Origin: Halanaerobiales bacterium
Lineage (GTDB): Bacteria > Bacillota > Halanaerobiia > Halanaerobiales > Halanaerobiaceae
Assembly (NCBI GenBank): GCA_016278485.1
Contig: JADQBT010000003.1
Location: 62,001 to 126,000, forward strand
Reading direction: 5' to 3'
DNA: 64,000 bases
Each line of letters starts with the position of its first letter. Position 1 is the first letter of the stretch. Shown piece by piece: positions 9,440-35,078 of the stretch. Position numbers and translations under genes: made by a program. Below the pieces are notes generated by a model. It ran no database searches. It saw only the letters and a list, made by a program, of their open reading frames with translations, and was not told the origin of the DNA.

Positions 9440-9495
9440 TAATATCTCACCTCCGAAAGTCAAACCTACAAAAATCGACAAATGACGACAATAGT

Positions 9496-9527
9496 ATTAT
9501 ATCTGATAACTTGTTCTAAAACAAGTT
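9496..9527 (-). promoter_or_regulatory. Promoter of the first xdh operon with overlapping palindromic operator
   Basis: On the minus strand TTGTTT (9519-9524) and TATAAT (9496-9501) are 17 nt apart, with a predicted start near 9489. A perfect inverted repeat, AACTTGTT-N4-AACAAGTT (9508-9527), covers the -35 box, placing a likely regulator site over it. PucR or another local regulator is a candidate; the binding protein is unknown. Confidence 0.72.
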
Positions 9528-9559
9528 TATATTTCACATTTTTGTATATAATTTGCAAA

Positions 9560-9637
9560 CACATCTTACATGTAACTACTTTCCTCCAACCGTGTTTACT
9601 CTAGCGCGGGCGCAGGATAGCATTACTAACTGCTATC
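9560..9637 (-). other. GC-rich, hairpin-bearing segment upstream of the xdh promoter
   Basis: Within the 319-nt gap between the xdh operon and the cyclase gene, 9601-9616 is strikingly GC-rich for this genome (contains GCGCGGGCGC), next to a perfect 7-bp stem 9616-9622/9631-9637. A further AAACAC...GTGTTT pairing is possible around 9555-9600. It precedes the recognised xdh promoter and follows the cyclase terminator. I cannot assign it to a known RNA family. Confidence 0.35.
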
Positions 9638-9704
9638 TTTTCACTTTCAATCTATTATTATTATGGTAATCCAAATATTATTTATTTTATCAAATTTTAA
9701 CATA

Positions 9705-9744
9705 ATTAAGGGAACTCTGTATGTAAAATACACACAGAATTCCC
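9705..9744 (-). terminator. Probable terminator after the cyclase gene
   Basis: Inverted repeat 9710-9724 with 9730-9744 (outer GGGAA/TTCCC, inner CTGT/ACAG, a few mismatches) lies 15 nt after the cyclase stop on the minus strand. The following sequence is only moderately U-rich, so termination may be leaky and allow read-through toward the xdh genes. Confidence 0.6.
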
Positions 9745-9758
9745 AATTTATTTATTAA

Positions 9759-10517
9759 TTAATCTTCATCAACAAAGGCTACACAACGGCCGATACTTGA
9801 CTCAAGATCGACACCTTTCCATGGGAAGAAACCAACTTTACAACGTTTGTTGAGAAGTTTATCAATCTCTCCACCAAGGTTTTCAGCGTGAATAATGCCT
9901 TCTGGGAATAACTTTGTATGCATAAATTGTCTACTCTCTGGATGAGAGAAAACTTCTTCTAATGAAGCACCAAGATGTTCTTCACATTCTGCTGCTAAAT
10001 CAGGACGTAATTTTTTACATACTGTATTCATTGGGTGATCTGCAGAACCACAATCAACACCAATCCACTTAATTTTCTTTTTCTTTGCCCATTCGCTAAA
10101 TTCATAATTAGGACCAGGATGCTTCATGAAATATCTTTCTTCATCAGCTTCTGGCTGATCCCAAGCATATTTGTGGTAACCAGTATTAATAATTAGGATA
10201 TCGCCTTCTTTAACATCTACCCTTTCTTCTACCATTTCAGAAGTATAAATATCGTAATCTCCTACTGCATCACTTAAATCAACGATTACAGCATCACCAT
10301 AAAGATCTTCTAACGGAATACTAGCCATATCGCGACCGGCAGTCCAGAAGTGTCTTTCACCATCAAGATGAGTACCAATATGGTTACTAGTTTTGATAAT
10401 TTGACCATTAACTCTTTCAGTTGAAAGACGCTTGAAATATTTCAGTTCAAGTGGCTCATAAGTTGGCCAAGGTGGAGTTGAAACACCAATAGGTTGTGTT
10501 AAATCATAAAGTTTCAT
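9759..10517 (-). CDS. Cyclase-family metal-dependent hydrolase (KynB-like fold)
   Basis: A 252-residue member of the cyclase/arylformamidase family, metal-dependent amidohydrolases acting on formyl-amide or cyclic amide bonds. The metal motif HxGTHxDxxxH is present as His46, His50, Asp52 and His56. A tryptophan-degradation role is unlikely because no such genes are near. It is the last gene after fdrA/allF and the DUF1116 gene, 17 nt downstream of the latter, and just before the xdh operon. This position suggests ring opening or hydrolysis of a ureido or amide intermediate in nucleobase breakdown. The exact reaction is inference. Confidence 0.85.
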   Translation of the reverse strand: MKLYDLTQPIGVSTPPWPTYEPLELKYFKRLSTERVNGQIIKTSNHIGTHLDGERHFWTAGRDMASIPLEDLYGDAVIVDLSDAVGDYDIYTSEMVEERVDVKEGDILIINTGYHKYAWDQPEADEERYFMKHPGPNYEFSEWAKKKKIKWIGVDCGSADHPMNTVCKKLRPDLAAECEEHLGASLEEVFSHPESRQFMHTKLFPEGIIHAENLGGEIDKLLNKRCKVGFFPWKGVDLESSIGRCVAFVDED

Positions 10518-10534
10518 TAACTAATCACTCCTCT

Positions 10535-11959
10535 TTAAATTTTATCATTATATTTTTGAGCAAATGCCCTTAAGGCCTTTTTAAAACATGCAACTGGTGG
10601 ATCTACCAGACCAGCACCGATCTGACCAATGCCTGGCTCTTTATGTGCTATACCCGTGTTAATTGTTGGTAAAATACCAGTTTCGATAATTTTTCTTAAA
10701 TCGATACCTGTTGGAGTACCGCGGAAACTAAGTGTAGGAATTGTGAAATTCTGATTCTCATCTAAGGTAATTTCATACATATCTTTGGTAAATTTAATAG
10801 AATCATCAACTGTACCTCCAACAAATCCAACGATAGCTGGAGCAGCAGCCATGGCAAATCCACCAACTGCCGCAGTCTCAGAAATAGTACTATCTCCAAG
10901 ATCTCGACAGGCATCTTCTTCACTATAACCTGGGAAGTAGAGACCGTCAACTTTCTCTGCTGGAGCAGTAAACCATTCTCCTTCAAGTCCACTAATTCTA
11001 ATCCCAAAATCTACACCATTTCTAGCCATTGCTGTAATAACCGTACTATATTCAATCCCATCAGCAGCATCCATAGTTGCTTTAGAAGCAGGCATGGATA
11101 AGTTAAGATAGAAATGTTCATTACCACCCATGAACTCAATTATTTCTTTTAAATCTTCATTTGAGTAATCAGTTTGTAGTAAGTAAGGAATAATCTCTCT
11201 CATAAATAATGAGGTAGCAGCCTTATTACGATTATGAACTTCATCACCCATATGCAGAGCTTGAGCAGTTATGTTTTTTAAATTAATACCATCAGATTTA
11301 GCGAGAGCATCTCCAAGTGCTGGACCAAGAATTTTTTCCATCCACTTTAATTTTTCAATTACATCTGATCCATTTGCACCAAAACGGAGTACTTTTCCTA
11401 AACCTTCATTCAAAGTACAATATGCTTTATTTCCATATGTTTTATTTTCAACAATCCAGACTGGCATTGATGGAGATACAATACCCGTCATTGGACCAAC
11501 AGCATTGTGATGGTGAGCAGCATCAAATGTTACTTCACCTGATTCAATTAATTTTACAGCTTCTTCTTCATCTGCAGCCCAGCCTTCATAAATACATGCT
11601 CCAATAGCAGCACCTTGCATAGGACCAGACATGTTATCCCAAGTATTTGGAGGTGAAGCATGAAGAATCATTTTACCTTCCATACCTGGCAAATCTTTAC
11701 CCGCAACACCTACTCCAATTAATACTGGATCACTTTTTTGTATTTTTTCTACAGCTTTTTTATTTGCATCATCAATTTTTTCAGATTCTACCTCATCAAG
11801 TAATTTGGCCATTTTTTCATCGCCACCAGCAGGTGGACGCCAATCTACCTGAACTGCATCAAAACCTTCACCTTTCAAGTTTTCTGCAAATGATTCAAGA
11901 CCAATATTAATAACCTTCAGTTCTTCTTTAAATAGTTCATGTAGTTTTTTATCTGTCAT
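10535..11959 (-). CDS. allG: DUF1116 protein, AllG (YlbE)-like carbamoyltransferase subunit
   Basis: A 474-residue DUF1116-family protein, the usual size for E. coli YlbE. The motif-rich segments MSGPMQGAAIGA (about 130-141), DAAHHHNAVGPMTGIVS (about 170-186) and NTGIAHKEPGIGQIGAG near the C terminus are typical. In E. coli, FdrA, YlbE and YlbF have been described as the oxamate carbamoyltransferase complex AllFGH, which splits oxalurate to oxamate and carbamoyl phosphate. Here the AllF homologue lies directly upstream (15-nt gap) and an AllH homologue is in the same gene run. No other allantoin-pathway enzyme is visible, so the substrate may be another N-acyl urea. Confidence 0.85.
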   Translation of the reverse strand: MTDKKLHELFKEELKVINIGLESFAENLKGEGFDAVQVDWRPPAGGDEKMAKLLDEVESEKIDDANKKAVEKIQKSDPVLIGVGVAGKDLPGMEGKMILHASPPNTWDNMSGPMQGAAIGACIYEGWAADEEEAVKLIESGEVTFDAAHHHNAVGPMTGIVSPSMPVWIVENKTYGNKAYCTLNEGLGKVLRFGANGSDVIEKLKWMEKILGPALGDALAKSDGINLKNITAQALHMGDEVHNRNKAATSLFMREIIPYLLQTDYSNEDLKEIIEFMGGNEHFYLNLSMPASKATMDAADGIEYSTVITAMARNGVDFGIRISGLEGEWFTAPAEKVDGLYFPGYSEEDACRDLGDSTISETAAVGGFAMAAAPAIVGFVGGTVDDSIKFTKDMYEITLDENQNFTIPTLSFRGTPTGIDLRKIIETGILPTINTGIAHKEPGIGQIGAGLVDPPVACFKKALRAFAQKYNDKI

Positions 11960-11974
11960 ATATATCTCTCCCCC

Positions 11975-13525
11975 CTAATTAATTCCAGAAAGAATTTGAC
12001 TAGCTACACGAACAGCCTGCACGTTTGTGGGGAGAACTTTAGCCCCAGCTTTTCGGAGCTTTTCTTCCTGCATATCTAAATTCTGTGGATCTTTATCAGT
12101 ACCACAAACAGAAGCTATTACAGAAAGGTAGCCACCACGATCAGCAACTGTAGCTTTTGCTTCTTTGATAGCTTCAGCAACTTCGCCAGCAGGGTCCATA
12201 TGCGAACCATAGCCAATTACCACATCTATTAAGATGACACCAACCTCTTCATCTTTTGCTTCTTCTAATAATCTTTCAGATCTCATATAAGGTTCAATCA
12301 TTGGATGTGGCTTTCCTTGAGTAAAATCGTCTTCGCCAAGATCAATTACTGTGTTTTCTATACTTTTTAAATCTTCTTTTAATCCATAACCCTCAGAAAT
12401 AGGGATATTAGAATACATATCACCATATTCATTGGTTAGCTGAATTAAAGCTTCACTACAGAGTGTCCCACCTGTATAAAGTCCGCGTAGATATTTTTGC
12501 TTAGAATTCATATTACTTGTTTCTTCTTTCACAATCTCTTCAATCTCTGATTGACTCATACCACCAGCAGCAACATCTTCACCTTTAATAATTCCTACAG
12601 CTTTAAATGCACCATCTTCTAAAGTATTAGCCCAGATAGCATCTGTACCTTCTACTACAGATGGATCTCCTCCAAGGAAATTAACTACTATTGGTTTTTT
12701 TATCTTTTTAACTTCTTCCATGATTTTCTCAGCAGCCTCTTTAGCCGGTGGCTTAGAAACCAAGACAATTACTTCAGTATCATCATCTTGAGCAAGTGCC
12801 TTTAAATCTTTAATCATCTCAATACCTTTTACTTTAGACTTTAAATCACGACCACCAGTACCAATTACCTGTGATAAGCCAACACCCTGGCGATCTACCA
12901 GACTGGATACTGCTTGAGCACCTGTTCCGGAAGCAGCTACAATACCAACTGGACCTTTGCTTACTACATTAGCGAAGGCAAGTGGAGCTTGATTTACAAT
13001 TGCTGTACCACAATCTGGTCCCATCAATAATAAATCTTTTTCTACTGCAAGTTCTTTAAGTGCAATTTCATCTTCTACAGGAACATTATCACTGAAAAGC
13101 ATAACATGTAAACCATTATTTAGAGCTTTACGTGCTTCACGTGCAGCAAACTGACCTGGAACTGAAATAATTACCAGGTTTGAGTCTGGCTGTGCTTCAA
13201 TAGCTCCTCTTAATGTGGAAGGTTTTTCTTCCGCTTTTCCCCCTCCAGCATTTTTCTTTTCTGCCATCAAGGTTTTGGTAGTTTCAATTGCTTCATCTAA
13301 TACATCTTCTTCACCATCTACTACAATAACTAAATCATTAGCATTGGCAGCTTCGGCTTCTGGTAAAAGCAAATTAGCTTCTTTTAAGATACCTTTATTG
13401 GCATCTGTACCCATAACTACTACAGCTTCTGTTATACCATCTAAACTTTTAACGTCTTTAGCCACAGACATTAAAGTTACAGAATCATAGTATGTTCCCT
13501 CTTTTACAAATACTTTTTTAGCCAT
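11975..13525 (-). CDS. allF: FdrA/AllF family protein, succinyl-CoA-synthetase-like
   Basis: A 516-residue protein of the FdrA family, whose fold resembles succinyl-CoA synthetase alpha and beta parts. Visible features are the Rossmann-like N-terminal region, the phosphate-type loop GPDCGTAI (about 170-177), VAASGTGAQAVSSLVDRQG (about 196-214) and GTGGRDLKSKVKG. Start ATG 13525 has a good AAGGAG site. In E. coli this is the AllF subunit of oxamate carbamoyltransferase; here it is followed by AllG and cyclase genes. It is separated from the upstream gene by a 150-nt gap containing a hairpin. Confidence 0.87.
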   Translation of the reverse strand: MAKKVFVKEGTYYDSVTLMSVAKDVKSLDGITEAVVVMGTDANKGILKEANLLLPEAEAANANDLVIVVDGEEDVLDEAIETTKTLMAEKKNAGGGKAEEKPSTLRGAIEAQPDSNLVIISVPGQFAAREARKALNNGLHVMLFSDNVPVEDEIALKELAVEKDLLLMGPDCGTAIVNQAPLAFANVVSKGPVGIVAASGTGAQAVSSLVDRQGVGLSQVIGTGGRDLKSKVKGIEMIKDLKALAQDDDTEVIVLVSKPPAKEAAEKIMEEVKKIKKPIVVNFLGGDPSVVEGTDAIWANTLEDGAFKAVGIIKGEDVAAGGMSQSEIEEIVKEETSNMNSKQKYLRGLYTGGTLCSEALIQLTNEYGDMYSNIPISEGYGLKEDLKSIENTVIDLGEDDFTQGKPHPMIEPYMRSERLLEEAKDEEVGVILIDVVIGYGSHMDPAGEVAEAIKEAKATVADRGGYLSVIASVCGTDKDPQNLDMQEEKLRKAGAKVLPTNVQAVRVASQILSGIN

Positions 13526-13548
13526 ATTAACAACTCCTTTTTGAAGAA

Positions 13549-13592
13549 GATCCCCATCCTCAAATCACATATGCAATAATCAGATGGGGATT
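13549..13592 (-). other. Intercistronic hairpin before allF
   Basis: A 10-bp stem (13549-13558 with 13583-13592, ATCCCCATC/GATGGGGAT core) stands between the acetyltransferase-like gene and allF. On the minus strand no U-run follows, so it may be a processing or stabilising hairpin; on the plus strand it has a U-run and would act as a terminator against antisense transcription. Confidence 0.55.
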
Positions 13593-13677
13593 TTTCTTAG
13601 CTTAATGAGGACTATACTATCGTTATCTATGTCTTCATCTATATAACTATATTTTAATTTAAAGTAGAAACAATTAC

Positions 13678-14406
13678 TTAGATATTAACGCCATCTGGTA
13701 AACGTAGCTTTTCGTTTTTAGCAAGTAGCTCATCAGAAACATCATAGCTAATTTCATTTCCTACCATTTGACCTACATAATCTTTAACAGCGGCATTCCA
13801 GTACTGCTGATCAACATAAAAGACACGTGCTCCGCCTAATTCATGCTGATATTCTGGGTAAGGATAAGATGGCTGAGCCATTCCTAGACCCCAACGCTTC
13901 CAACCATTATAACTTTCAAATGTAGACCATACTTCTTCATTACCTTGTTCTTCAAAAGCATATACAAGTTTACGGTAATAAAGAGTAGCTCCTACTCTTA
14001 AACCACGTTTGAAAGCCATTGTATGCAAACTAATGTTAATATCTTTATCTCTAACACGACCATTAGCAAAACCAACACATTCTCCGTCAATAGCACCTAC
14101 GAAGAGATATGGGTCTTTCAGACGCTTACGATAATAACCTAAGAGCTCAGCATAAACACGAGCACCAACGATATCATAAAAGTCTTTAGAACCTTTTTCC
14201 ATAAACTTTTTAACATAATCTAAAAGCATAGGAAGTTCTTCATCTTTTACTTCTCTAATCAGCATAGTAGAACCGTCTTTCAATTCAATTTTACAAGGTT
14301 TAGGTTCAGCCATATCAAGTGCAGGTGCACTCAAAAATGGTTCGATTTCCTCTACTTTTATTGTGATTTCCTCTTGAGATACTTCAACTGGTCTTTCTTT
14401 AAACAT
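13678..14406 (-). CDS. GNAT-like acetyltransferase-fold protein of unknown function
   Basis: A 242-residue protein. Residues 50-200 look like a GNAT domain: a beta-strand with DYVKKFMEKG before it, YLFVGAIDGECVGFANGRVRDKDINIS as the central strands, and FKRGLRVGATLYYRKLVYAFEEQG at the position of the CoA-binding loop and helix, though the usual Q/RxxGxG/A loop is altered. Start ATG 14406 has an AGGAGG site. It is the first gene behind its own promoter and a structured leader, and precedes allF-allG-cyclase, suggesting a specific role in that pathway. I do not recognise a named family. Confidence 0.55.
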   Translation of the reverse strand: MFKERPVEVSQEEITIKVEEIEPFLSAPALDMAEPKPCKIELKDGSTMLIREVKDEELPMLLDYVKKFMEKGSKDFYDIVGARVYAELLGYYRKRLKDPYLFVGAIDGECVGFANGRVRDKDINISLHTMAFKRGLRVGATLYYRKLVYAFEEQGNEEVWSTFESYNGWKRWGLGMAQPSYPYPEYQHELGGARVFYVDQQYWNAAVKDYVGQMVGNEISYDVSDELLAKNEKLRLPDGVNI

Positions 14407-14563
14407 TATTAATTCCTCCTAGATTTTATTTGAATTTTTCTTATAAAGTTGACTTGACTACCAAAAACTAAATTACCACTTCAGCTTGGGCAGCACCCCC
14501 TTTAAAAGATACTCCAATTGATTAGGTCCAGGTAAAAAATATCTATGTATTAGCTTTACCTTT
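14407..14563 (-). promoter_or_regulatory. Candidate structured leader RNA (riboswitch-like)
   Basis: The 157-nt leader begins (predicted +1 about 14563) with a stem whose arms are 14555-14560 and 14531-14536 (GGTAAA/TTTACC). The second arm can instead pair with 14473-14477, enclosing a 53-nt G/C-richer core (14478-14530) that contains GGGGGTGCTGCCC and AGCTGAAG. Mutually exclusive pairing around a conserved-looking core is what a ligand-responsive leader shows. It does not fit purine, B12, full TPP or other classes I know. No terminator follows, so control would be at translation or by another route. Confidence 0.4.
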
Positions 14564-14569
14564 TTTTAG

Positions 14570-14598
14570 TTTATATTTTATCAACTCTGTTTATACAA
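14570..14598 (-). promoter_or_regulatory. Promoter for the acetyltransferase-allF-allG-cyclase unit
   Basis: Minus-strand TTGTAT (14593-14598) and TATAAA (14570-14575) with 17-nt spacing; predicted start near 14563, exactly at the first stem of the structured leader. Confidence 0.65.
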
Positions 14599-14673
14599 TT
14601 CTATTTATTGTCGTTATTTACCTTTGTAAAAGTTAACTAAATATCTTGCTTTCTTTTTGTAACAATACTACAA

Positions 14674-15804
14674 TTAAGCGAAAATGGACATCATAACACC
14701 TGCAGCAACCGCTGAACCAATTACCCCTGCTACATTTGGTCCCATGGCATGCATTAATAAAAAGTTAGACGGATCTGCTTTTTGACCCTCTTTTTGTACA
14801 ACTCTAGCTGCCATCGGTACAGCCGAAACACCAGCTGCTCCAATAAGCGGGTTAATTTTACCACCAGATAATCTGTGCATTAATTTACCAAGTAACAACC
14901 CAGCAGCAGTACCAATTGCAAAAGCAATCACACCTAAGAACATGATTTGCAAAGTTTTTACCTGTAAAAATTTATCTGCTGATGCACTAGCACCGACAGA
15001 AATTCCCAGAAAAATAGTAACAATGTTAATAAGAGCATTTTGGGCTGTTTCACTCAAACGGTCTACAACACCAGATTCTTTAAAAAGATTACCCAACATC
15101 AACATCCCAATTAATGGTGCAGCCGGTGGTAGAATTAAAACCACAATTACCGTTACAATAATTGGAAAAAGAACTTTTTCTTTTTTAGAAACCGGTCTAA
15201 GTTGTTCCATTCTAACCTGACGTTCTTCTTCTGTAGTCAACCATTTCATTATTGGAGGTTGAATAACCGGAACAAGTGCCATATAGGAATAGGCAGCTAC
15301 TGCAATTGCACCCAAATACTCAGGTGCCAATTGTGAGGCAAGATAAATTGCTGTTGGTCCATCTGCCCCACCAATTATTCCAATCGGGGCAGCTTGATAC
15401 CCGGCAAAACCAAGTAATATTGCTCCAATAAAAGTAATAAATATACCAAACTGAGCAGCAGCTCCTAAGAGTAAACTTTTGGGATTAGCAATTAATGGTC
15501 CAAAATCTGTCATTGAACCAATCCCAAGAAAAATTATCGGCGGAAAGATACCAAGTTCATCTCCAAAATAAAAATATCTTAATAGACCTGCAGGTTGACC
15601 ATTAGCGGCATGTGCCATTAAGCCTGTCAAAGGAAGATTTACAAGCATCATTCCAAAAGCAATCGGTACTAACAGCAAAGGTTCATATTTCTTCACAATA
15701 CCCAGATAGAGTAGAATAAAGGAAATTAAAAGCATCACTATGTGACCCCATTGTAATGCTGCAATACCTGTTTCATTAAGGAAATCTATAAATACGTTTA
15801 ACAA
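14674..15804 (-). CDS. mmdB: Na+-pumping decarboxylase beta subunit (OadB/MmdB/GcdB family)
   Basis: A 376-residue integral membrane protein with about nine to eleven helices, the Na+-translocating subunit of biotin-dependent decarboxylases. It releases CO2 from carboxybiotin and moves Na+ outward. Diagnostic segments are [19 protein letters not shown] (around 113-131), the [16 protein letters not shown] loop containing the functional Asp (around 143-158), and [19 protein letters not shown] near 325-343. TTG start at 15804 with AAGGAGGT eight nt before. Follows mmdA-oadG-biotin-carrier genes in one run, so the four subunits make a complete pump. Confidence 0.93.
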
Positions 15805-15827
15805 GTTACTGGACCTCCTTCAAAATC

Positions 15828-16244
15828 CTATTCTATTTCGATTAATACCGATCCTGAATCCACTTTATCGTTTGCACTAACATTTACGCTAGCAACTGTT
15901 CCATCGCCTGGAGCATAAATTTCATTTTCCATTTTCATAGCTTCCAGAACTAATAACAAATCACCTGAAGATACACTGTCACCTTCAGCAACTTTAACTT
16001 CTAATATCGTACCTGACATCGGTGCTGTAATACTTCCCGCACCAGATACAGCTGGTTGTTGTCTTTGTTTTTTAACAGGCCTTTTTTTAGGCGTTGGTCT
16101 TGGAGCAGGTTTAGAAGTTGGATTACTCTTTTCAACTACTGGTTCAGAATTAGTTGCTGAACTTGAAGTAGTTCCTCCACCTATTTCTTCCACTTCTACT
16201 TCATATTCATTTCCATTAACTACTACACGATATACTTTATTCAT
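15828..16244 (-). CDS. mmdC: Biotin carboxyl carrier subunit of the Na+-pumping decarboxylase
   Basis: A 138-residue protein: short N-terminal part (1-20), flexible Ser/Thr/Pro/Ala/Lys-rich linker (about 24-68), and a C-terminal biotinyl domain (about 70-138). The biotin-accepting lysine is Lys104 in the EAMKMENE motif. It carries CO2 from the carboxyltransferase subunit to the membrane subunit. Its start overlaps the end of the gamma subunit gene by 8 nt. Biotin demand here fits the BioY gene at 29914-30420. Confidence 0.95.
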
Positions 16245-16677
16245 GATCTACCTCCTTAAAAACTTTCACTAGATTATTGTTATTAATTCCACCACGGGCC
16301 ATTTTACCCCAGATTGGCACATTATCGCCACCAGTCCGTTTAATACTTCTTATTTTATAGCCACCAGAACTCTGATCAATATGATGTCTTAATGCAGCCA
16401 TAATTGAGGCCACAATCTCTTCCTCATACTCATCAACCGAGTCAGTAGTTGCCATTTTAGATTTATTAATTTTTGTAATTGAATGAGCTTCTTCCTTCAC
16501 TTCAAACTCTTCATAAAGAAACTTCTTCATCATTTTTAAAACAAACATCAACAGGATTAATATGAAGAATACAATTCCCATACCCAGCACAGCGACCTGT
16601 GAGCCAGCTATTAATTTCTGACCAACAGTCATGCTTTGACTTAAAGCTGGATCCTGCAATAATTCTAATGCTGTCAT
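16237..16677 (-). CDS. mmdD: Decarboxylase gamma/delta membrane subunit (OadG family)
   Basis: A 146-residue small subunit with one membrane helix (about 30-52, [20 protein letters not shown]) and a long cytoplasmic tail ending near [21 protein letters not shown]. OadG-type subunits assemble the soluble carboxyltransferase and membrane beta subunit of oxaloacetate and methylmalonyl-CoA decarboxylases. It lies between mmdA (43-nt gap) and the biotin carrier gene (8-nt overlap). Confidence 0.87.
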
Positions 16678-16720
16678 CGTTTGCAGACCTCCTTGCTTAT
16701 TATGTTAATATCTGACATTT

Positions 16721-18265
16721 TTAGAGTGGAATGTTACCGTGTTTTTTCTGCGGTCTATCTTCTCTTTTGCCGATGACAGATTCTAAAGCCATGATAACTC
16801 TCTTTCTGGTTTCTTCAGGTAAAATTACATCATCTACATAACCATCTTTAGCTGCCTGATATGGATTAGCAAATTTTTCACGATATTCTTCAATTTTCTT
16901 TGCTCTTGTTTCAGCAGGATCATCAGAGGCTTTAATCTCTCTTCTAAAGATAATATTCGCAGCACCACCAGGTCCCATAACTGCAATTTCGGCAATTGGC
17001 CATGCAAAAACATAATCTGCCCCAACATGCCTACTGCTCATAGCAATATATGCTCCACCATATGCTTTTCTTGTAATCACATTGATTTTTGGTACACTAG
17101 CTTCAGAATATGCATAAAGCAACTTAGCACCATGTCTAATTACTCCCCCATACTCTTGATCTACACCAGGTAAGTAACCAGGTACATCTGTTAATGTTAA
17201 AATTGGAATATTGAAAGCATCGCAAAATCTAATAAAGCGAGCAGCCTTATCAGATGAATCAATATCTAAACAACCAGCTTTAAACTTAGGTTGATTTGCA
17301 ACAATACCAACAGATCTGCCACCCATTCTTGCAAAACCAATAACAATATTTTTTGCAAAAAATGGCTGAACCTCAAAGAAATCCTGATCATCAACAATTT
17401 GATTGATTACATCTCTAACGTCATAAGGTTTATTAGGATTATCTGAAACAATTTCCCTTAACTCCTCAGCACTTCTTTCAAAAGAATCAGCTGTTTCTTT
17501 AACAGGAGCTCCTTCTAAGTTGTTGTTTGGAATAAAGCTGATTAGTTTTTTAATTTGATCAAAACAAGCTTCTTCATTTTGAGCCAAGAATTGGGCAACC
17601 CCACTAATTTCATTATGAGTCATTCCGCCACCTAATTCTTCTGCACTAACCTCTTCACCTGTTACAGATTTAATAACCTGTGGACCAGTAATGAACATCT
17701 TACTAGTATCATCTACCATAAATACAAAATCAGTAAGGGCTGGAGAATATACAGCACCACCAGCACAAGGTCCTAAGATTACAGAAATTTGTGGAATAAC
17801 ACCAGAATTATGAGTATTTCTACTAAAAATACCACCATAACCTGCTAGTGAACCCACTCCTTCTTGAATACGAGCACCACCTGAATCATTTAAACCAATG
17901 ATTGGTACACCAGCTTTAGCAGCCATATCCATAACTTTCCATATCTTTTTAGCATGCATTTCACCAAGTGATCCACCCATTGCTGTAAAATCCTGAGCAT
18001 ATACAAAAACATTTCTACCACCAATAGTTCCTTGCCCAGTTACTACACCTTCAGCTGGTATTTCTTTATCAGCCATACCCAGACTTTGAGCGTGATGTTC
18101 AACATACATGCCTATTTCTTGAAAACTTTCAGCATCTAACAGCGCGTCTATTCTTTCTCTGGCAGTCTTTTTGCCTTTAGCGTGCTGTTTTTCAATTCTT
18201 TTCTCGCCACCGCCAAGTTTTATCTTCTTGCGTCGTTCATGAAGATCTTTAATTTTTTCTTCCAA
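16721..18265 (-). CDS. mmdA: Acyl-CoA carboxyltransferase subunit, methylmalonyl-CoA decarboxylase alpha type
   Basis: A 514-residue crotonase-fold carboxyltransferase, matching methylmalonyl-CoA decarboxylase alpha and propionyl-CoA carboxylase beta in length. It has an N-terminal half with SGGARIQEGVGSLAGYGGIF (about 128-147) and GPCAGGAVYSPALTDF, and a C-terminal half with the DVPGYLPGVDQEYGG motif and AYGGAYIAMSSR. The adjacent biotin, gamma and beta subunit genes show it works as a Na+-pumping decarboxylase rather than a carboxylase. The acyl group (methylmalonyl, malonyl or glutaconyl) cannot be fixed from sequence; methylmalonyl is the closest look. TTG start, AAAGGAGG site. Confidence 0.9.
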   Translation of the reverse strand: MEEKIKDLHERRKKIKLGGGEKRIEKQHAKGKKTARERIDALLDAESFQEIGMYVEHHAQSLGMADKEIPAEGVVTGQGTIGGRNVFVYAQDFTAMGGSLGEMHAKKIWKVMDMAAKAGVPIIGLNDSGGARIQEGVGSLAGYGGIFSRNTHNSGVIPQISVILGPCAGGAVYSPALTDFVFMVDDTSKMFITGPQVIKSVTGEEVSAEELGGGMTHNEISGVAQFLAQNEEACFDQIKKLISFIPNNNLEGAPVKETADSFERSAEELREIVSDNPNKPYDVRDVINQIVDDQDFFEVQPFFAKNIVIGFARMGGRSVGIVANQPKFKAGCLDIDSSDKAARFIRFCDAFNIPILTLTDVPGYLPGVDQEYGGVIRHGAKLLYAYSEASVPKINVITRKAYGGAYIAMSSRHVGADYVFAWPIAEIAVMGPGGAANIIFRREIKASDDPAETRAKKIEEYREKFANPYQAAKDGYVDDVILPEETRKRVIMALESVIGKREDRPQKKHGNIPL

Positions 18266-18361
18266 GGTTAAACCTCCTTTAAAAGGTATCTAAAATAAGT
18301 TTTTTTCTGTTTCCGTTACTATATATTCTTTGATATTATAGCTAATACCTTTGTGAATATT

Positions 18362-19312
18362 CTACAAATCAATACGCATTTCATTAGTGATATACATGAA
18401 AATGGACCAAATTAATCCACTAAGCATATCTGAACCAGAACTACTTCCAATTTTTTGCAGGTTATAAGCAGAATCTCTTATTTCTGTCACATTATTATTT
18501 AATTTTTCTACCAATTTAATTAAATATTCATTATATCCACCTTCTGCAGCAGCTTGTAACTGTATGCCACTTTCAAATGTTGTTAAATTAGAAAAACTAA
18601 CTCTCTGCAAAAAATTACGGATAGTATAGTCAGGTGTTGTCATACCAATTTTCTCGCCACAGGCCCAGCCTGTTAAAAAATCATCTCCAGCTGGGGTCAA
18701 ACCAGGACCAAGACCAATTAATTTAATTAAGCACTTGTCTTTTTCACTTTTATCTTCTGCTACTAGAAAACTCTCTAAAGATTGCAAAGCAACTCGCAGA
18801 AGATAATTTTTGCTATTACTAGCCGAGTTACAATAAATAGTATTTCCTCGCAAGTAGTTATAAATTCCTCCCAGCCCTTCTAATGAACCATTTTCTAAAA
18901 GTTCCGCCAAAAGAGCATCTTTAAATATGCTTAGTTGGTGTTTATTTTCACAATGCTTATCTGCCACTTTTACTTGCGGGCAACTCTCCCACCCAACCGC
19001 CTCTGAAAAATCTAAGTGGATATTTTTAGCTGGAAAAATTATTTCTTTTTTAGTTAGTTTAACTTTCATGCCTGTCTTTAAAGCAAGTTTTTTTATACTA
19101 AAACGCGCATGACTCTTAATACGCAAATGATATGGTGCCATAATCACCGACTTATCTATTAAGGAAAATCCCAAATTATCATTTATCACTTTAATGTTTG
19201 CCACATGGTCAAAAACACTTTTGACTTCACATTCTATATCTTCAAGTACAGAAAGTTTATTTAATATAAAATCTCCTGCCTGATCAATTTTAAAGTCAAA
19301 CTCAAGTTGCAT
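18362..19312 (-). CDS. allH: DUF2877 protein, AllH (YlbF)-like carbamoyltransferase subunit
   Basis: A 316-residue protein with the DUF2877 signature GLGPGLTPAGDDFLTGW (about 198-214) and the C-terminal SSSGSDMLSGLIWSIF segment. E. coli YlbF (AllH) of this family is the third subunit of oxamate carbamoyltransferase with FdrA (AllF) and YlbE (AllG). All three homologues occur here, but allH stands apart, 1 nt after the pucR-type regulator and ahead of the decarboxylase genes. It is probably co-transcribed with both. No substitute function is evident. Confidence 0.85.
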   Translation of the reverse strand: MQLEFDFKIDQAGDFILNKLSVLEDIECEVKSVFDHVANIKVINDNLGFSLIDKSVIMAPYHLRIKSHARFSIKKLALKTGMKVKLTKKEIIFPAKNIHLDFSEAVGWESCPQVKVADKHCENKHQLSIFKDALLAELLENGSLEGLGGIYNYLRGNTIYCNSASNSKNYLLRVALQSLESFLVAEDKSEKDKCLIKLIGLGPGLTPAGDDFLTGWACGEKIGMTTPDYTIRNFLQRVSFSNLTTFESGIQLQAAAEGGYNEYLIKLVEKLNNNVTEIRDSAYNLQKIGSSSGSDMLSGLIWSIFMYITNEMRIDL

Positions 19313-19313
19313 T

Positions 19314-20993
19314 TCACCAACTACTTTCCATCTCTGCCAAACTCATTAATTTTAAAGCAACCTCAAGATTTAATCTATCATTGGCATCATTCATTTCAAA
19401 ACCCGTTATTTTCTCTATTCTTTGCAATCTATAAAGAGCAGTATTATAATGAATGAATAATTTTTTGGCAATATTTGTTAGGTTGCCGTTTTCTTCAAAA
19501 TATGCTTGTAATGTTTTTACTAGTTCTGTATTATGGTCTTCATCATATTTAATTAAAGGATTAATAGTATTAATCAAAAACGAACGCAAATCATCTTCTT
19601 CAACATTATAAAGTAATTTATAAACACCGAGTTTATCAAAAAAGTAAATGAGCTTATCCTCATCTTTTAATTTATAAGATACACTAATTGCTCTTTTGGC
19701 TTGATAATAGCCTTGTTTAATATTAACAATGTTATCAATAAAAGTACCTACACCTACTTTAATTAATGATCTATCCTCTTTTTTATTAAAAATAGCAAGC
19801 ACATTATTTATGTAATCAACAATCTCTTTTTGACAGTACTCATTGTCATCAACGTCACCTGGGTATAATAAGACAACATATGTACCAATATCACCAGTAA
19901 TCAGATCAGGCCCATCCAGGACAGATATTCGATTCAGAACAGTTTTTTGGATATTCTGGCTTAGTACTTTTTTCTTCATTTCTCTATTAATTAATTTCTT
20001 TAAGTCAATTAAAACAACCATATACCCCTTATCAAAATTCCAACCTATTCTTTCGCCCCTTTTAAGTAAGGTGTCACGTTCCTCTATCTTACCTTTTAAA
20101 ATATCATAAAGGAGTTCATTTTTATATCTTCTTTCAACTTCAGAAATTGCCTGTTGATTTAAGATATCAAGTGCCGCAATTGTACTTGCCCATTTTAAAG
20201 TAGCCAGATCTAATATATTAATCTCAGAACAAATATCCCACGCATAAAGGTAACCATAAAAGCTATTACTTGTAATAATTGGTATAGCATGCAGATTATA
20301 TATTTCCCCATTAATTTTAATGTTTTTTTGTTTTGAACTTGGTGTTTCTACATTTGAAAAACTAAAACCTTCCTGCCTCTCAATTGTAGCATAAAGCTCT
20401 TCCTCATTAACCTCCTCGCTGATCTCCAGAGGAATGTTAATGGATAATATATTATTATTATTATCAGTTATCATGATCGGATTATCAATCATTTCCGCTA
20501 AAACATCTGCCAACTTTTCTAGTCCCTCTCTATAAAGAATAATATCAGTTAACTCTTCATGAATATTTAGCGTTTTTCGTAAAAATTCAGTCTGCACATC
20601 AAGTATTTTACTTGAGACCGAATTTATTAATTCAGAATAAGAGAAAGAGTAAGGCACCTGTAGAAGAGGAAAATTATATTCTTCAGCCTGTTTTATCATA
20701 AAACTAGGTATTTCCTTTATATAGCGTCCTGGTTTAATTGCTAATCCTGCTAACTCTTTTTTTACCAATGAAGGAATCAAGGTTCGTAGAGCAATTTCAT
20801 CATCTTTAATAGAATAAAGAGTAGTGAAAAGCAACTCACCCTTTTCCACCCAATCAACGATATCTGGTACTTCCATGATATTTAGTTTTGTAATTCTTCT
20901 TTCTACACCATCTGCGCCAGCCAATAATTTGATTTTTTTCATATTATCCAGATCTAACGCTTCACGAACAGTTATACCTATTAACTCCTTCAT
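19314..20993 (-). CDS. pucR: PucR-family transcriptional regulator
   Basis: A 559-residue regulator with the three-part PucR plan: N-terminal PucR (purine catabolism) domain (about 1-125, beginning ELIGITVREALDLDNMKK), a central GGDEF-like/CdaR middle domain (about 285-430) and a C-terminal helix-turn-helix of the PucR/CdaR type (about 490-550; LFIHYNTALYRLQRIEKITG). In Bacillus, PucR controls purine catabolism in response to allantoin-type intermediates. Position next to allH and the decarboxylase implies local control of the 9-24 kb cluster. It has its own promoter and a 5'-end hairpin leader, suggesting autoregulation or attenuation. Confidence 0.9.
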   Translation of the reverse strand: MKELIGITVREALDLDNMKKIKLLAGADGVERRITKLNIMEVPDIVDWVEKGELLFTTLYSIKDDEIALRTLIPSLVKKELAGLAIKPGRYIKEIPSFMIKQAEEYNFPLLQVPYSFSYSELINSVSSKILDVQTEFLRKTLNIHEELTDIILYREGLEKLADVLAEMIDNPIMITDNNNNILSINIPLEISEEVNEEELYATIERQEGFSFSNVETPSSKQKNIKINGEIYNLHAIPIITSNSFYGYLYAWDICSEINILDLATLKWASTIAALDILNQQAISEVERRYKNELLYDILKGKIEERDTLLKRGERIGWNFDKGYMVVLIDLKKLINREMKKKVLSQNIQKTVLNRISVLDGPDLITGDIGTYVVLLYPGDVDDNEYCQKEIVDYINNVLAIFNKKEDRSLIKVGVGTFIDNIVNIKQGYYQAKRAISVSYKLKDEDKLIYFFDKLGVYKLLYNVEEDDLRSFLINTINPLIKYDEDHNTELVKTLQAYFEENGNLTNIAKKLFIHYNTALYRLQRIEKITGFEMNDANDRLNLEVALKLMSLAEMESSW

Positions 20994-21012
20994 AATTTAC
21001 CGCCCTTCCTAA

Positions 21013-21079
21013 AACAAAATAAAAATAGAGAACCCTTATGTAATTTTTACATAAAAAAACATAAATATGCGGGCTCTCT
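21013..21079 (-). terminator. Terminator-like hairpin at the 5' end of the pucR transcript
   Basis: Stem 21071-21079 with 21027-21035 (one G-U pair) encloses a second inverted repeat (21037-21055, TTATGTAA/TTACATAA) and is followed by a U-rich run (21013-21026) on the minus strand. The predicted transcription start (about 21077) lies at the base of the stem, so almost the whole leader is a terminator-like structure. Confidence 0.6.
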
Positions 21080-21082
21080 TGT

Positions 21083-21111
21083 ATAATATCTCAAAAACAT
21101 TTTTAAATCAA
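21083..21111 (-). promoter_or_regulatory. Promoter of pucR operon
   Basis: Minus-strand TTGATT (21106-21111) and TATTAT (21083-21088), spacing 17 nt. Confidence 0.65.
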
Positions 21112-21137
21112 GTCAATGTTTAAGGAAAGATGCTTTA

Positions 21138-22730
21138 TTAAATTTTTGAAAGAGATTCTAATGCTAATCCTATCTCAACAATTCCTTTTCCGTTAATTCT
21201 AGGAATCATAGCAAATTTAAATAAACGATTATCTTCTATCCGACGATGCATTGGCGTAATAACACTATCATTTAGGTCAGACAAATCTAATTTAGCTGCC
21301 CATTCATTAATTTCAAATAAATTTTCACCTAAAATTTCATCGATTGTTGTTAAAGTGAATTCACCAGAATCATTTGTAATAAATATATCATCTATTGCTG
21401 TCTCTTGTTTTATCTTTTCTAATAAATCCTTAGTAAAAGCTTCATCTTCCTCTATATCTCTTATCCTTCTACATAGGTTTATCATTGTTTTATCCATAAT
21501 CTTACTAGTTAAAAGCATTTCAGAATCTACCGAATCTTTATACAAAACGTTAGACATCTCATCAATTTCAGAAAGAAATTCACATTGATTATCTACCGAA
21601 CTTGCCACTTCTTCACCACTTGCTGCATTAGTTTCTGCTATTGAAAGTATAGTATTTAAAGTACCTTCCGATTGGTTAATTACTACAGCAGCTTCTTCAG
21701 AAGCTTGGTTTAACTCATGCATCAAAGTGAAATTATTTGAGACTATCTGATTGACATTCTTAATCATTTCTCCTACTTGAATAGTATTAGTTGTCTGTTG
21801 TTCAATAATTACAACATTTTCTTTCATCTGATTGTGAATAGATACCACCAAACTATTTACATTCTCTAGCAATTCACTTATTTGTTTTGCAGAACTATCA
21901 ACTTCCTGGGCCAGATCTCTAATCTGATTTGCTACAACTCCAAAGCTCTGCCCCTCAGCGCCAGCACGTGCAGCTTCAATAGATGCATTTAAAGCCAATA
22001 AATTAGTCTGTTTAGCTATGCCTGTTATAATATTGACAATATCAGTTACTTCCTTTGATCTTTCTGTGAGTTCTTCAATATTATGCATTGTCTTAGTTAC
22101 CATTTGATTATTTCTTTTCGATTCATCAATCAGTTCATTTACCAATTGATCCCCTTTATGGGCAATATTAGTCGCTTTTTCAGAAGCAGAAGCAACTTTT
22201 TCGGTATCGTTATTGGTTTTACTTATATAATCGTATATTTTCTGAAATGCTTTTTCTGTTTCATCTAACTTCACCGCCTGTGTTTCAGCACCTTCGGCTA
22301 CTTCATTAATTGCATTGGCTATGTCAGTAGTCATCCCAAAAATATCTTTGACATTTTTTTGTAAATTTTCTGCTTTCTCTGCAGTATGTACAGATGAACC
22401 AATGACTTGTTCAAAAAGTGATCTCAAATTAGATAAAATTTCATTCAATTTATTTGTTATGAAATAATAACTGCTATTTTGGTTAACCTCAAATCTCTGG
22501 CCAAAATCACCTTCGATAATCATATTCAAAGTTGTCTTAATTTTCTTCTGCTCATCTTTTTTCTGATACTCATATAAAGCCATGCACAACAATCCTAATA
22601 TAAGGTTCAAAATAATAATTGTTGAGAGAAAGCCCCATTGATACATACCAACGAGATAATTAGTTAACAACGGATTAATAAAAACGATCATTGTTAAAAA
22701 TATAATCAATAAATTACGACTCCTCTTCAT
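21138..22730 (-). CDS. Methyl-accepting chemotaxis protein with C-terminal sensor-like domain
   Basis: A 530-residue chemoreceptor. Two adjacent membrane helices (about 7-26 and 33-52) with almost no periplasmic loop are followed by a HAMP-like linker, the methylation and signalling coiled coil with the tip motif LLALNASIEAARAGAEG (about 248-264), and an extra C-terminal domain of about 120 residues (about 405-530). The last part resembles a small sensory (Cache/PAS-like) fold and would be cytoplasmic. ATG 22730 is chosen over the 21-codon longer frame because AGGAGG precedes it. Placement between the nucleobase permease and pucR suggests taxis to nucleobases. Confidence 0.88.
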   Translation of the reverse strand: MKRSRNLLIIFLTMIVFINPLLTNYLVGMYQWGFLSTIIILNLILGLLCMALYEYQKKDEQKKIKTTLNMIIEGDFGQRFEVNQNSSYYFITNKLNEILSNLRSLFEQVIGSSVHTAEKAENLQKNVKDIFGMTTDIANAINEVAEGAETQAVKLDETEKAFQKIYDYISKTNNDTEKVASASEKATNIAHKGDQLVNELIDESKRNNQMVTKTMHNIEELTERSKEVTDIVNIITGIAKQTNLLALNASIEAARAGAEGQSFGVVANQIRDLAQEVDSSAKQISELLENVNSLVVSIHNQMKENVVIIEQQTTNTIQVGEMIKNVNQIVSNNFTLMHELNQASEEAAVVINQSEGTLNTILSIAETNAASGEEVASSVDNQCEFLSEIDEMSNVLYKDSVDSEMLLTSKIMDKTMINLCRRIRDIEEDEAFTKDLLEKIKQETAIDDIFITNDSGEFTLTTIDEILGENLFEINEWAAKLDLSDLNDSVITPMHRRIEDNRLFKFAMIPRINGKGIVEIGLALESLSKI

Positions 22731-22767
22731 GATGAAAGTCCTCCTTTGACCAAATAATACCATAAAT

Positions 22768-22801
22768 AATGAATAGTGTCCATAATTGGACACTATTCAT
22801 T
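22768..22801 (-). terminator. Perfect 14-bp inverted repeat between permease and chemoreceptor genes
   Basis: AATGAATAGTGTCC (22768-22781) and its exact complement (22788-22801) flank a 6-nt loop, 25 nt after the permease stop. The downstream minus-strand sequence (ATTTATGGTATTATTT) is only partly U-rich, so it may be a leaky terminator, an mRNA stabiliser, or an operator for the chemoreceptor gene. Confidence 0.6.
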
Positions 22802-22825
22802 ACTAAATCTTATGTTATTTGTTAC

Positions 22826-24061
22826 TTATAGCTCATCTGGATGTGGTAATACTTGATTAAGCACAATACCTACTAAAGCAGCAAGTGCCATACCTGCAAA
22901 TTCAAGATCCCACAGTTTTAGAGTAGCGCCACCAAGACCAAGCACTAAAATAGTAGCTGCAATAATCAAGTTTCTAGAAATTTTAAGATCTGTCTGGTTT
23001 TCTACAACTGTTCTGACACCAATAGCAGCAATCATACCAAAGAGTAAGATTGAAATACCACCAATAACTGGTTGTGGAATTGTTTCAATAAATCCACCCA
23101 ATTTAGGAACAAGTGCCAGAATAATAGCAAATGTAGCAGCAATTCTCATTACAAGCGGATCAAATACCTTTGTAAGAGCTAATACACCAGTGTTTTCACC
23201 ATATGTTGTGTTTGGTGGACCACCGAAAAGTCCAGCAAAAGCTGTTGCTAGACCATCACCAAGCATTGTTCTATGAATACCTGGGTCTTCAACAAACTCT
23301 GATCCTTTACCAACAGTATTACTAATTGCCAAGATATCTCCAACATGTTCAACCATTGAAACAATAGCAACTGGCGCAATAATGGAGATTGCTGTAAGAT
23401 CAAATTTAGGTACTGTAAATGCTGGTAAACCAAACCATGGCGCATTTATAATTGGGGCAAAGTCAACAATACCTGCCACAACAGCTGCCAGATAACCAGC
23501 AACTAAACCAACAATAACCGGTACAATTTTAAAGAATCCTTTTGCAAATACTGCAGCAATAGTTGCACCAAGCAGTGCAGTAGCTGCAACAATTACACCA
23601 GCCGCTCCAGTGCCAGAAGCTTGATCAATAGCAACCGGTGCAAGATTAAGACCAATTACCATAATGATTGGACCTGTAACGATTGGCGGGAATACACTTC
23701 TAATTAAACTAGGACCTATTTTATATATTAAAAAGGCCACAAGTGCATATATGATACCAGCAGCAATAATCCCACCTTGAGCAAATGGAATACCCTGCTT
23801 TTCTACTACCAATGCAATAGGTGCAATAAAAGCAAATGAAGAACCTAGATAAGCAGGCACCTTCTTCTTAGTAATAAAATGAAAAAGCCAAGTTCCTACA
23901 CCAGCAGTAAACAAAGCAACAGAAATATTAAGTCCAGTCAAGATAGGCACAAGAATTGTAGCTCCAAACATTGCAAAAGCATGTTGTAATCCTAATAAAT
24001 ACTTTTGAGTTGATGGAAGTTCATTAACATCCCATATACCCGGTACTTTTTTCTCATCCAT
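22826..24061 (-). CDS. NCS2-family nucleobase (uracil/xanthine) permease
   Basis: A 411-residue transporter with about 14 membrane helices of the uracil-xanthine (UraA-like, NCS2) family. N-terminal YLLGLQHAFAMFGATILVPIL is diagnostic, as is the central motif GDGLATAFAGLFGGPPNTTYGENTG (about 270-294), whose NTTYGENTG form is of the uracil type rather than the 'P.TTFSQN' urate/xanthine type. It would import a pyrimidine or purine base with H+ or Na+. First gene of the catabolic run; promoter at 24192-24220. The uracil-type motif supports a pyrimidine substrate. Confidence 0.92.
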   Translation of the reverse strand: MDEKKVPGIWDVNELPSTQKYLLGLQHAFAMFGATILVPILTGLNISVALFTAGVGTWLFHFITKKKVPAYLGSSFAFIAPIALVVEKQGIPFAQGGIIAAGIIYALVAFLIYKIGPSLIRSVFPPIVTGPIIMVIGLNLAPVAIDQASGTGAAGVIVAATALLGATIAAVFAKGFFKIVPVIVGLVAGYLAAVVAGIVDFAPIINAPWFGLPAFTVPKFDLTAISIIAPVAIVSMVEHVGDILAISNTVGKGSEFVEDPGIHRTMLGDGLATAFAGLFGGPPNTTYGENTGVLALTKVFDPLVMRIAATFAIILALVPKLGGFIETIPQPVIGGISILLFGMIAAIGVRTVVENQTDLKISRNLIIAATILVLGLGGATLKLWDLEFAGMALAALVGIVLNQVLPHPDEL

Positions 24062-26132: not shown

Positions 26133-26149
26133 TTCTGATTTAAAAATAT

Positions 26150-27765: not shown

Positions 27766-27769
27766 TAAA

Positions 27770-35074: not shown

Positions 35075-35078
35075 ATTT

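Follow-up and report, generated by a model that had tools for sequence, protein, structure and literature searches.

A minus-strand gene run in a Halanaerobiales bacterium joins AllFGH to a cyclase-family hydrolase, a molybdenum hydroxylase and a Na+-pumping decarboxylase: a candidate energy-conserving pathway for pyrimidine bases

The stretch of DNA analyzed here, referred to as the window, comprises 64,000 nucleotides (positions 62,001 to 126,000) of contig JADQBT010000003.1 of the Halanaerobiales bacterium assembly GCA_016278485.1 (2.86 Mb, 39 contigs, 96% complete), and our subject is a minus-strand gene run around homologs of the carbamoyltransferase AllFGH and its possible role in the degradation of pyrimidine bases. 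Coordinates are those of the window; L-numbers denote loci or fetched stretches, G-numbers sampled genomes, and bit scores are accompanied by the curated cut-off of the Pfam or NCBIfam model concerned. In order of transcription, from 24061 down to 5779, the run consists of an NCS2 permease (22826-24061), a methyl-accepting chemotaxis protein (21138-22793, PF00015), a PucR-type regulator (19314-20993), AllH (18362-19312), the decarboxylase subunits MmdA (16721-18265), MmdD (16237-16677), MmdC (15828-16244) and MmdB (14674-15804), a GNAT-fold protein (13678-14406), AllF (11975-13525), AllG (10535-11959), a PF04199 cyclase-family metal hydrolase (9759-10517) and a molybdenum (Mo) hydroxylase made up of a FAD subunit (8585-9481), a [2Fe-2S] subunit (8109-8585) and an XdhA-type large subunit (5779-8109). 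The four mmd genes thus sit inside the AllFGH set, between allH and allF. Successive genes overlap by up to 8 bp or are separated by 1-277 bp (range -8 to 277), the widest gaps being those between cyclase and XdhB (277 bp) and between MmdB and the GNAT gene (267 bp), and most starts are preceded by a purine-rich stretch that, judged by eye, resembles a ribosome-binding site. All genes named in the original prediction, which had been made from the sequence of this DNA without database searches, were recovered on this strand and in these places. The closest named relatives at the locus are Halanaerobiales metagenome-assembled genomes, the cyclase being 89% identical.

The three AllFGH subunits score above their cut-offs (AllH, PF11392, 73.8 bits, cut-off 25; AllF or FdrA, NF004760, 501.5, cut-off 433; AllG, PF06545, 329, cut-off 27), and by family membership the complex is a predicted carbamoyltransferase; the allG gene is the sole match in the genome. 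The cyclase matches PF04199 with 117 bits (cut-off 23.1), and its HxGTHxD sequence, which we take to be the metal motif of the family, is invariant in 24 of 24 aligned rows. With respect to the decarboxylase, the expectation of a complete biotin-dependent complex was borne out in that all four subunits are present and that MmdB (TIGR01109, 523.6 bits, cut-off 190.6) and the OadG-like membrane subunit MmdD (TIGR01195, OadG family, 57.1, cut-off 36.05) pass, but the carboxyltransferase MmdA (TIGR01117, 884.9, cut-off 998.8) and the biotin carrier MmdC (NF047903, 101.5, cut-off 200; EAMKMEN motif) remain below their cut-offs. Given the score of MmdA, malonyl- and methylmalonyl-coenzyme A (CoA) are not told apart as substrates, and the complex is predicted to pump Na+ on (methyl)malonyl-CoA. 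The Mo hydroxylase subunits all score below the cut-offs of their best models (FAD subunit, NF043083, 166 bits, cut-off 310; [2Fe-2S] subunit, NF043084, 208.9, cut-off 217; large subunit, NCBIfam xanthine dehydrogenase (XDH)-family model, 545, cut-off 780), and the same holds for the regulator (NF045769, PmfR, over its N-terminal part, and NF058503, AdeR). The relative of the FAD subunit in L064 has 284 residues against 298 here, and the true start may therefore lie downstream.

To specify the associations of these genes, AllG, the cyclase and the GNAT family were searched for in 398 genomes sampled evenly from the phylum, and gene classes were called by tblastn in 60 AllG neighbourhoods, each at most 20 kb long. 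AllG was found in 59 genomes, the cyclase in 41 and both in 38, so that AllG occurred in 38 of the 41 cyclase genomes against 21 of the 357 cyclase-free ones (Fisher p 2e-34, kinship uncorrected). Within the window's own family only the window genome itself possesses AllG (1 of 14), indicating that the set is patchily spread. The neighbourhoods could be divided according to the ring opener: 33 contained the cyclase, 8 an AtzD-type (cyanuric acid hydrolase-like) enzyme and 5 an allantoinase (2 of these 5 also AtzD), the remainder having none of these, and the cyclase shared a stretch neither with AtzD nor with allantoinase (AllB; 0 of 60 in both cases). Some loci scored as cyclase-free belong to genomes with a cyclase elsewhere (G136, G191, G241), where it stands together with a Mo hydroxylase, a C-N hydrolase and an NCS2 permease. 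When ring-opener labels were placed on the AllG tree they required 4 changes, compared to a mean of 13.9 and a minimum of 10 in 200 shuffles, although kinship helps such clustering and the shuffles ignore it. The cyclase-linked AllGs form at least two groups rather than one clade, the window AllG being among them and apart from that of E. coli. Considering that the loci split by ring opener and that the AllG tree follows the opener, AllFGH may be a general device for the phosphorolysis of N-acyl ureas that is paired with differing ring openers.

The 33 cyclase loci contained PucR in 28 cases, AllH in 23, XdhA in 22, carbamate kinase in 20, an NCS2 permease in 18, a C-N hydrolase in 16, a class III CoA-transferase in 8, MmdA in 7, MmdB in 5, the GNAT gene and a cytosine-deaminase-like gene in 3 each and a cytosine permease in 2. 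The other 27 AllG loci yielded one XdhA, two CoA-transferases, two MmdAs (L087 and L088, 43-44% identical) and neither a C-N hydrolase nor MmdB. A nearly complete version of the predicted pathway is found in L035, where a single one-strand run reads XdhC, XdhB, MmdB, C, (D), A, nitroreductase, C-N hydrolase, carbamate kinase, cyclase, CoA-transferase, AllG, F, H and PucR, the unseen XdhA perhaps lying beyond the fetched stretch. In 8 of 23 genomes, where 0.5 were expected, an MmdA-like gene (at least 58% identity) was located no more than 20 kb from AllG, and when G000 and G251 were left out the figure was 6 of 21 (P 4e-6); the order with mmdADCB between allH and allF recurs in L064, L113 and L114. 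In a second set, for which contigs of named genomes were scanned with the cyclase alignment (at least 584 relatives), the best 80 loci originated from Halanaerobia, Chloroflexi (mostly Anaerolineae), Spirochaetes and a few others and included AllG in 45 cases, XdhA in 40, the GNAT gene in 31, a CoA-transferase in 21, NupB/NupC-like ABC permeases in 15 and MmdA in 12. The data support the view that the gene set behaves as one module, with a linkage beyond local chance.

The co-occurrence of allFGH, cyclase and mmd genes in other genomes that lack allantoin genes nearby, which the original prediction had put forward as a check, was thus found. Allantoinase, allantoate amidohydrolase, ureidoglycolate dehydrogenase (AllD) and AllE were each absent from all 33 cyclase loci, and in the window tblastn recovered no allantoate amidohydrolase, AllD, AllE, AllA, AtzD (8 queries), carbamate kinase, C-N hydrolase or class III CoA-transferase, while the allantoinase queries matched only the cytosine-deaminase-like gene discussed below, and weakly. 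The claim that allantoinase and ureidoglycolate genes are missing holds for the window and, regarding allantoinase, for the genome, the best match there (232 bits, cut-off 357.85) being a dihydropyrimidinase-type gene; AllD (E. coli query) was absent from the window and from all 60 AllG neighbourhoods, the whole genome not having been searched for ureidoglycolate genes. Likewise, the genome has no PreA dihydropyrimidine dehydrogenase above the cut-off.

On the basis of gene families, their linkage and their co-occurrence, from which every reaction and substrate is inferred, we consider it probable that the products of this run degrade a pyrimidine base, e.g. uracil, anaerobically and with conservation of energy. 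The NCS2 permease would import uracil (or thymine), which the Mo hydroxylase would oxidize at C6 to barbiturate (or 5-methylbarbiturate). The cyclase-family hydrolase would then open the ring to give ureidomalonate, an N-acyl urea that AllFGH could split by phosphorolysis into carbamoyl phosphate and malonamate, the former being converted to ATP by a carbamate kinase encoded elsewhere in the genome. Such an enzyme is present, above its cut-off, on another contig (L203:7146-8066), where the surrounding genes (ABC transporter, aminotransferase, LarA-like, alanine dehydrogenase) show no link to the module. Relatives would turn malonamate into malonyl-CoA with an amidase and a CoA-transferase, a task that probably falls to the GNAT-fold protein in the window, and MmdA-D would decarboxylate (methyl)malonyl-CoA with concomitant Na+ pumping. 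The net reaction for uracil would be uracil + 4 H2O -> acetate + 2 CO2 + 2 NH3 + 2[H]. The original scheme, running from pyrimidine via barbiturate and ureidomalonate to carbamoyl phosphate and decarboxylation, agrees with the linkage of the module but lacked two steps: as the product of AllFGH would be an amide, the conversion of amide to acid and of acid to CoA ester has to be added.

The assignment of a pyrimidine as the substrate is inferred from the likeness of the permease, the nearby cytosine genes and the need for a (methyl)malonyl fragment; an MmdA-type decarboxylase together with a CoA-transferase calls for a malonyl or methylmalonyl piece, which barbiturate or 5-methylbarbiturate would supply. 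The permease, described earlier as having a uracil-type motif, scores 326.7 bits with solved chains of the uracil permease and 81.8 with those of the uric acid-xanthine permease, and shares EHVG and YGEN with the uracil permease, the His of EHVGH being Asp here, but it does not reach the curated uracil permease cut-off (406.8 bits, cut-off 477) and passes the NCS2 superfamily model instead (385.9, cut-off 291.8). The Glu residues in these two motifs presumably correspond to the uracil-binding residues of transmembrane helices 8 and 10 (TM8/TM10) of UraA. As to the proposed uracil/thymine C6 hydroxylase, XdhA was present in 22 of the 33 cyclase loci compared to 1 of the 27 others, in the window the Mo hydroxylase adjoins the ring opener (5779-10517), and the Glu that matches the E. 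coli XdhA motif was conserved in 59 of 60 aligned large-subunit rows, the remaining row having a gap. Furthermore, an operon-like run at 31423-37668, starting 7 kb off, encodes a cytosine permease (36349-37668, minus strand; NF008241, 435 bits, cut-off 326), a cytosine-deaminase-like amidohydrolase (35079-36323, minus strand; NF005748, 402, below the cut-off of 438) and a second three-subunit Mo hydroxylase (31423-35119, minus strand), the large subunit of which is 39% identical to that of the first. These genes, which were not part of the original prediction, likely constitute a cytosine branch that would feed cytosine into the same ring-opening step. In L040 the gene following the cyclase is 68% identical to the cytosine-deaminase-like gene of the window, and cytosine-deaminase-like (CodA-like) and Mo hydroxylase genes occur together in the cyclase loci L040, L056, L062 and L142.

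The two steps absent from the earlier scheme would fit one C-N hydrolase and one class III CoA-transferase, which were assigned by Pfam in cyclase clusters. The C-N hydrolase was encountered exclusively in cyclase loci (16 of 33 against 0 of 27), and a whole-genome search of 32 cyclase genomes for the subfamily (at least 55% identity) returned 16 copies in 14 genomes, each within 10 kb of AllG; an additional piece of 46 residues was found in G150. An amidase-signature protein, usually encoded directly after the CoA-transferase, was observed in 10 loci, most of them from Spirochaetes. Among 110 loci, 28 had the CoA-transferase, and 26 of these also had an amide hydrolase of either sort; when the cyclase tree was taken into account, 6.5 of 8 independent pairs pointed in the same direction (median p 0.016). 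This is what the step from amide via acid to CoA ester would look like. Three loci in which no C-N hydrolase was seen (L043, L051 and L213, of G345, G366 and G254) have an M42-peptidase-like gene between the cyclase and the MmdB homolog, which may represent another amide hydrolase.

The GNAT-fold protein of 242 residues, overlooked in the original prediction, has no Pfam or NCBIfam match and no relative in a sequence search of the PDB. A structure predicted from 34 sequences reached a predicted local distance difference test (pLDDT) score of 83; a prediction from 5 sequences (pLDDT 47) was set aside. The predicted structure supports the fold (Foldseek E 7.9e-7; VIA-align to CoA-bound 1yre, Z 15.6, root-mean-square deviation 2.8, 172 residues aligned), and its closest folds include CoA-bound ones. 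The family was found in 10 of the 398 genomes, all 10 having the cyclase, and in 9 of them within 15 kb of AllG, the gene of the tenth (G279) being at a contig end. Among 32 cyclase genomes there was no overlap with those having the C-N hydrolase (0 of 9 against 14 of 23, p 0.002, kinship uncorrected); the sole locus with both genes, on opposite strands, was L153 of the second set. The CoA-transferase was absent from all 34 GNAT loci (p 4.5e-6). A strict exclusion of GNAT and CoA-transferase was considered but downgraded to suggestive, given that only about 2 of 10 pairs differ when kinship is taken into account (median p 0.5) and that G390 has both genes, far apart. Within the 34 GNAT loci a thiolase was found in 20, often with an OB-fold partner, and Mmd in 9, the two never occurring together; the kinship-aware association with thiolase had a median p of 0.06. 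The thiolase (e.g. L168:11605-12795) and the OB-fold/zinc-ribbon partner (L145:3190-3543) are encoded next to the GNAT gene, chiefly in loci of Chloroflexi, and perhaps constitute another way to use malonyl-CoA. That the GNAT-fold protein does the job of amidase and CoA-transferase is a guess, and the activity would be a new one. One could go further and envisage a new kind of catabolic enzyme that catalyzes a reverse acyl transfer, malonamate + CoA -> malonyl-CoA + NH3, in which the energy of the amide is saved and the reaction is pulled by Na+-pump decarboxylation or, in other loci, by a thiolase pair; the sites of energy conservation would then be carbamate kinase, the Na+ pump and acetyl-CoA. 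We regard this extension as rather doubtful.

In the eight neighbourhoods with an AtzD-type opener (L058, L060, L061, L069, L071, L075, L080, L084) AllFGH was accompanied by PucR in all cases and by carbamate kinase in 5, whereas a near-full XdhA, MmdA and MmdB were absent from all 8. A partial Mo hydroxylase was seen in two of these loci, an XdhA piece of around 137 residues in L069 and XdhB plus XdhC in L060, and L075, L080 and L084 each have two tandem AllG genes. The idea that the AtzD-type enzymes are barbiturases was mostly dropped, as 6 of the 8 scored above the cyanuric acid hydrolase cut-off of 360 bits and the other two just under it (L080, 359.3; L084, 348.7); that of L069 aligned with 664 bits to the cyanuric acid hydrolase chain and with 318 to the barbiturase chain. 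A barbiturase may still be encoded in L075, L080 and L084, where the enzyme is near the cut-off and beside a CodA-like gene. The AtzD/AllFGH loci possibly specify a phosphorolytic cyanurate/biuret route that gives carbamoyl phosphate.

Several observations weigh against the pathway as proposed for the window. Of the two genes that the original prediction suggested looking for elsewhere in the genome, carbamate kinase is there, but the CoA-transferase was retrieved only as a class I-like gene (306.7 bits, below the cut-off of 674.8), and the genome lacks both a C-N hydrolase and a class III CoA-transferase at E 1e-15. It does encode a dihydropyrimidinase-type enzyme (431.6 bits, cut-off 393.25) that could serve another route. 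A terminator-like hairpin in the cyclase/Mo hydroxylase gap (9710-9744, minus strand; 16-pair stem, poor T tract) suggests that the last three genes may be a separate transcription unit, and may uncouple transcription of the Mo hydroxylase from the rest of the run. The Mo hydroxylases linked to the module vary widely, with identities to that of the window between 71% and 31%, so their substrates may differ, and CodA-like genes were also present in 4 of the 8 AtzD loci and hence do not single out this pathway. Furthermore, no more than 45 of the 80 loci found via the cyclase show AllG in the stretch, many of these being contig fragments. The decarboxylase is limited to 7 of 33 cyclase loci and 12 of 80 in the second set and is therefore not essential to the module, while a thiolase was found in 27 of 110 loci, none of them with Mmd, an exclusion that is unproven when kinship is taken into account (median p 0.5).

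The same enzymes would also do for thymine instead of uracil, via 5-methylbarbiturate, ureidomethylmalonate, methylmalonamate and methylmalonyl-CoA to propionyl-CoA formed by the Na+ pump. The closeness of MmdA to the methylmalonyl-CoA decarboxylase alpha model would agree with this, but the score of that match, below the cut-off, does not separate it from malonyl-CoA, and the cytosine permease and deaminase-like genes point to uracil. We hold thymine for possible but less likely than not. A route via oxalurate is improbable in our opinion. Here, the cyclase would open a cyclic C3 ureide (e.g. parabanate), AllFGH would yield oxamate and carbamoyl phosphate, and oxamate would pass to oxalate by the C-N hydrolase and on to oxalyl-CoA by the class III CoA-transferase. 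Oxalurate is the compound on which E. coli AllFGH acts, according to PMC11326118. In addition, among curated models the CoA-transferase is closest to CoA:oxalate CoA-transferase (423 bits, below the cut-off of 522), a further point against the malonyl route that would fit an oxalurate/oxamate one. Against this, allantoin genes were not seen in cyclase loci, and both the biotin-dependent MmdA-type decarboxylase and the thiolase pair found elsewhere fit malonyl rather than oxalyl thioesters, as is established for these families. Moreover, E. coli Gcl, the sole thiamine pyrophosphate (TPP)-enzyme query, matched a single stretch (L050), no oxalyl-CoA decarboxylase model having been run.

The AtzD-type sister loci described above bring in the idea that the cyclase opens a triazine-like ring and that AllFGH acts on biuret or carboxybiuret, since the AllFGH of those loci may take biuret-like N-acyl ureas. 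Yet the 8 AtzD loci share no stretch with the cyclase and lack the near-full XdhA and the decarboxylase subunits, and triazines yield no malonyl part for CoA-transferase and MmdA, which makes this explanation extremely unlikely. Finally, the decarboxylase could serve general propionate/succinate metabolism and have ended up in the AllFGH run by chance. MmdA is the sole match in the window genome at E 1e-30 or better, and could thus be housekeeping, and most cyclase loci have no decarboxylase within 10 kb; however, its position between allH and allF here and in three other loci, and the repetition of the linkage in distant genera, argue against this, and we consider a chance association very unlikely.

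Besides the cytosine genes, the surroundings of the run include further genes not mentioned in the original prediction. A small nitroreductase-family flavoprotein is encoded on the plus strand at 24405-24890, relatives of which lie within or beside the module in L035, L044 and L050. It is followed, also on the plus strand, by the four genes of a BMP-type ABC transporter (25128-29768), for which the best models were those of a putative B6 ABC transporter, each below cut-off, and which is possibly a base or nucleoside importer. A TonB-dependent-receptor-like gene, judged by eye only, is located just downstream of the Mo hydroxylase (3515-5341). On contig C29 of the same genome (L211, around 188.4 kb) a second cyclase gene with 80% identity (tblastn) adjoins a BMP-type binding protein that is 70% identical to that of the window, in a 20 kb stretch without AllFGH.

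If the proposed pathway is correct, an oxidative, phosphorolytic use of pyrimidine bases, with a gain of both ATP and a sodium gradient, would be open to bacteria of at least three phyla (the loci are named Halanaerobiales, Chloroflexi/Anaerolineae and Spirochaetes). To our knowledge, no comparable energy is saved at these stages by the established ways in which bacteria degrade uracil (reductive, Rut, URC and barbiturase/ureidomalonase). A widespread cyclase subfamily, the AllFGH sets that lack allantoin genes and a GNAT family without a name would each thereby gain an activity. The organism belongs to a group of salt-loving anaerobes, and the pathway would also bear on the turnover of nucleic acids in hypersaline and subsurface sediments.

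Comparison to known systems puts the module in perspective. The actinobacterial oxidative pyrimidine pathway employs uracil/thymine dehydrogenase, barbiturase, which belongs to the AtzD fold family, and ureidomalonase, which hydrolyzes ureidomalonate to urea and malonate. The proposed intermediates barbiturate, ureidomalonate and malonate are the same, but here the ring opener would be a PF04199 cyclase and not an AtzD fold, phosphorolysis would give carbamoyl phosphate, and the end would consist of malonyl-CoA and a Na+ pump; an opener of the AtzD/barbiturase family was found neither in the window nor in any of the 33 cyclase loci. The groups that carry the module are mostly anaerobes. Na+-pumping (methyl)malonyl-CoA decarboxylases (MmdABCD) are known from Veillonella and Propionigenium and consist of the same four subunits, whereas here they are embedded in a gene run for base degradation. 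The AtzD/AllFGH loci have AllFGH, a ring-opening amidohydrolase and PucR in common with the cyclase loci and differ in the type of opener and in the absence of a near-full XdhA, MmdA and MmdB. E. coli AllFGH has been described as an oxamic transcarbamylase acting with the carbamate kinase AllK (Kim and Kim 2024, PMC11326118); the subunit families, the carbamate kinase in 20 of 33 cyclase loci and the proposed energy saving via carbamoyl phosphate correspond, whereas the allantoin genes are replaced in the cyclase loci by cyclase, Mo hydroxylase, uracil-type permease and decarboxylase. The window run thus appears to use the enzyme of the allantoin pathway but not the pathway itself. In nitrifier genomes allFGHK was found with a biuret hydrolase and, as in our loci, without upstream allantoin genes, which was taken there as oxalurate use; the text of that study contains neither cyclase, barbitur- nor hydantoin (PMC12625717). 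Similarly, the anaerobic reductive uric acid pathway shares an XDH homolog, a carbamoyltransferase and a carbamate kinase, but its carbamoyltransferase is of the YgeW type and its end is the C3 compound diaminopropionate, AllF and barbitur- being absent from the text (PMC12507026). Within the open-access literature, as far as titles and abstract openings go and with subscription papers mostly outside, none was found that proposes the present route or joins AllFGH or the cyclase to barbiturate or uracil. Taken together, we read the module as known enzyme classes in a new, widespread and energy-saving combination, to which the GNAT-fold protein possibly adds one new activity.

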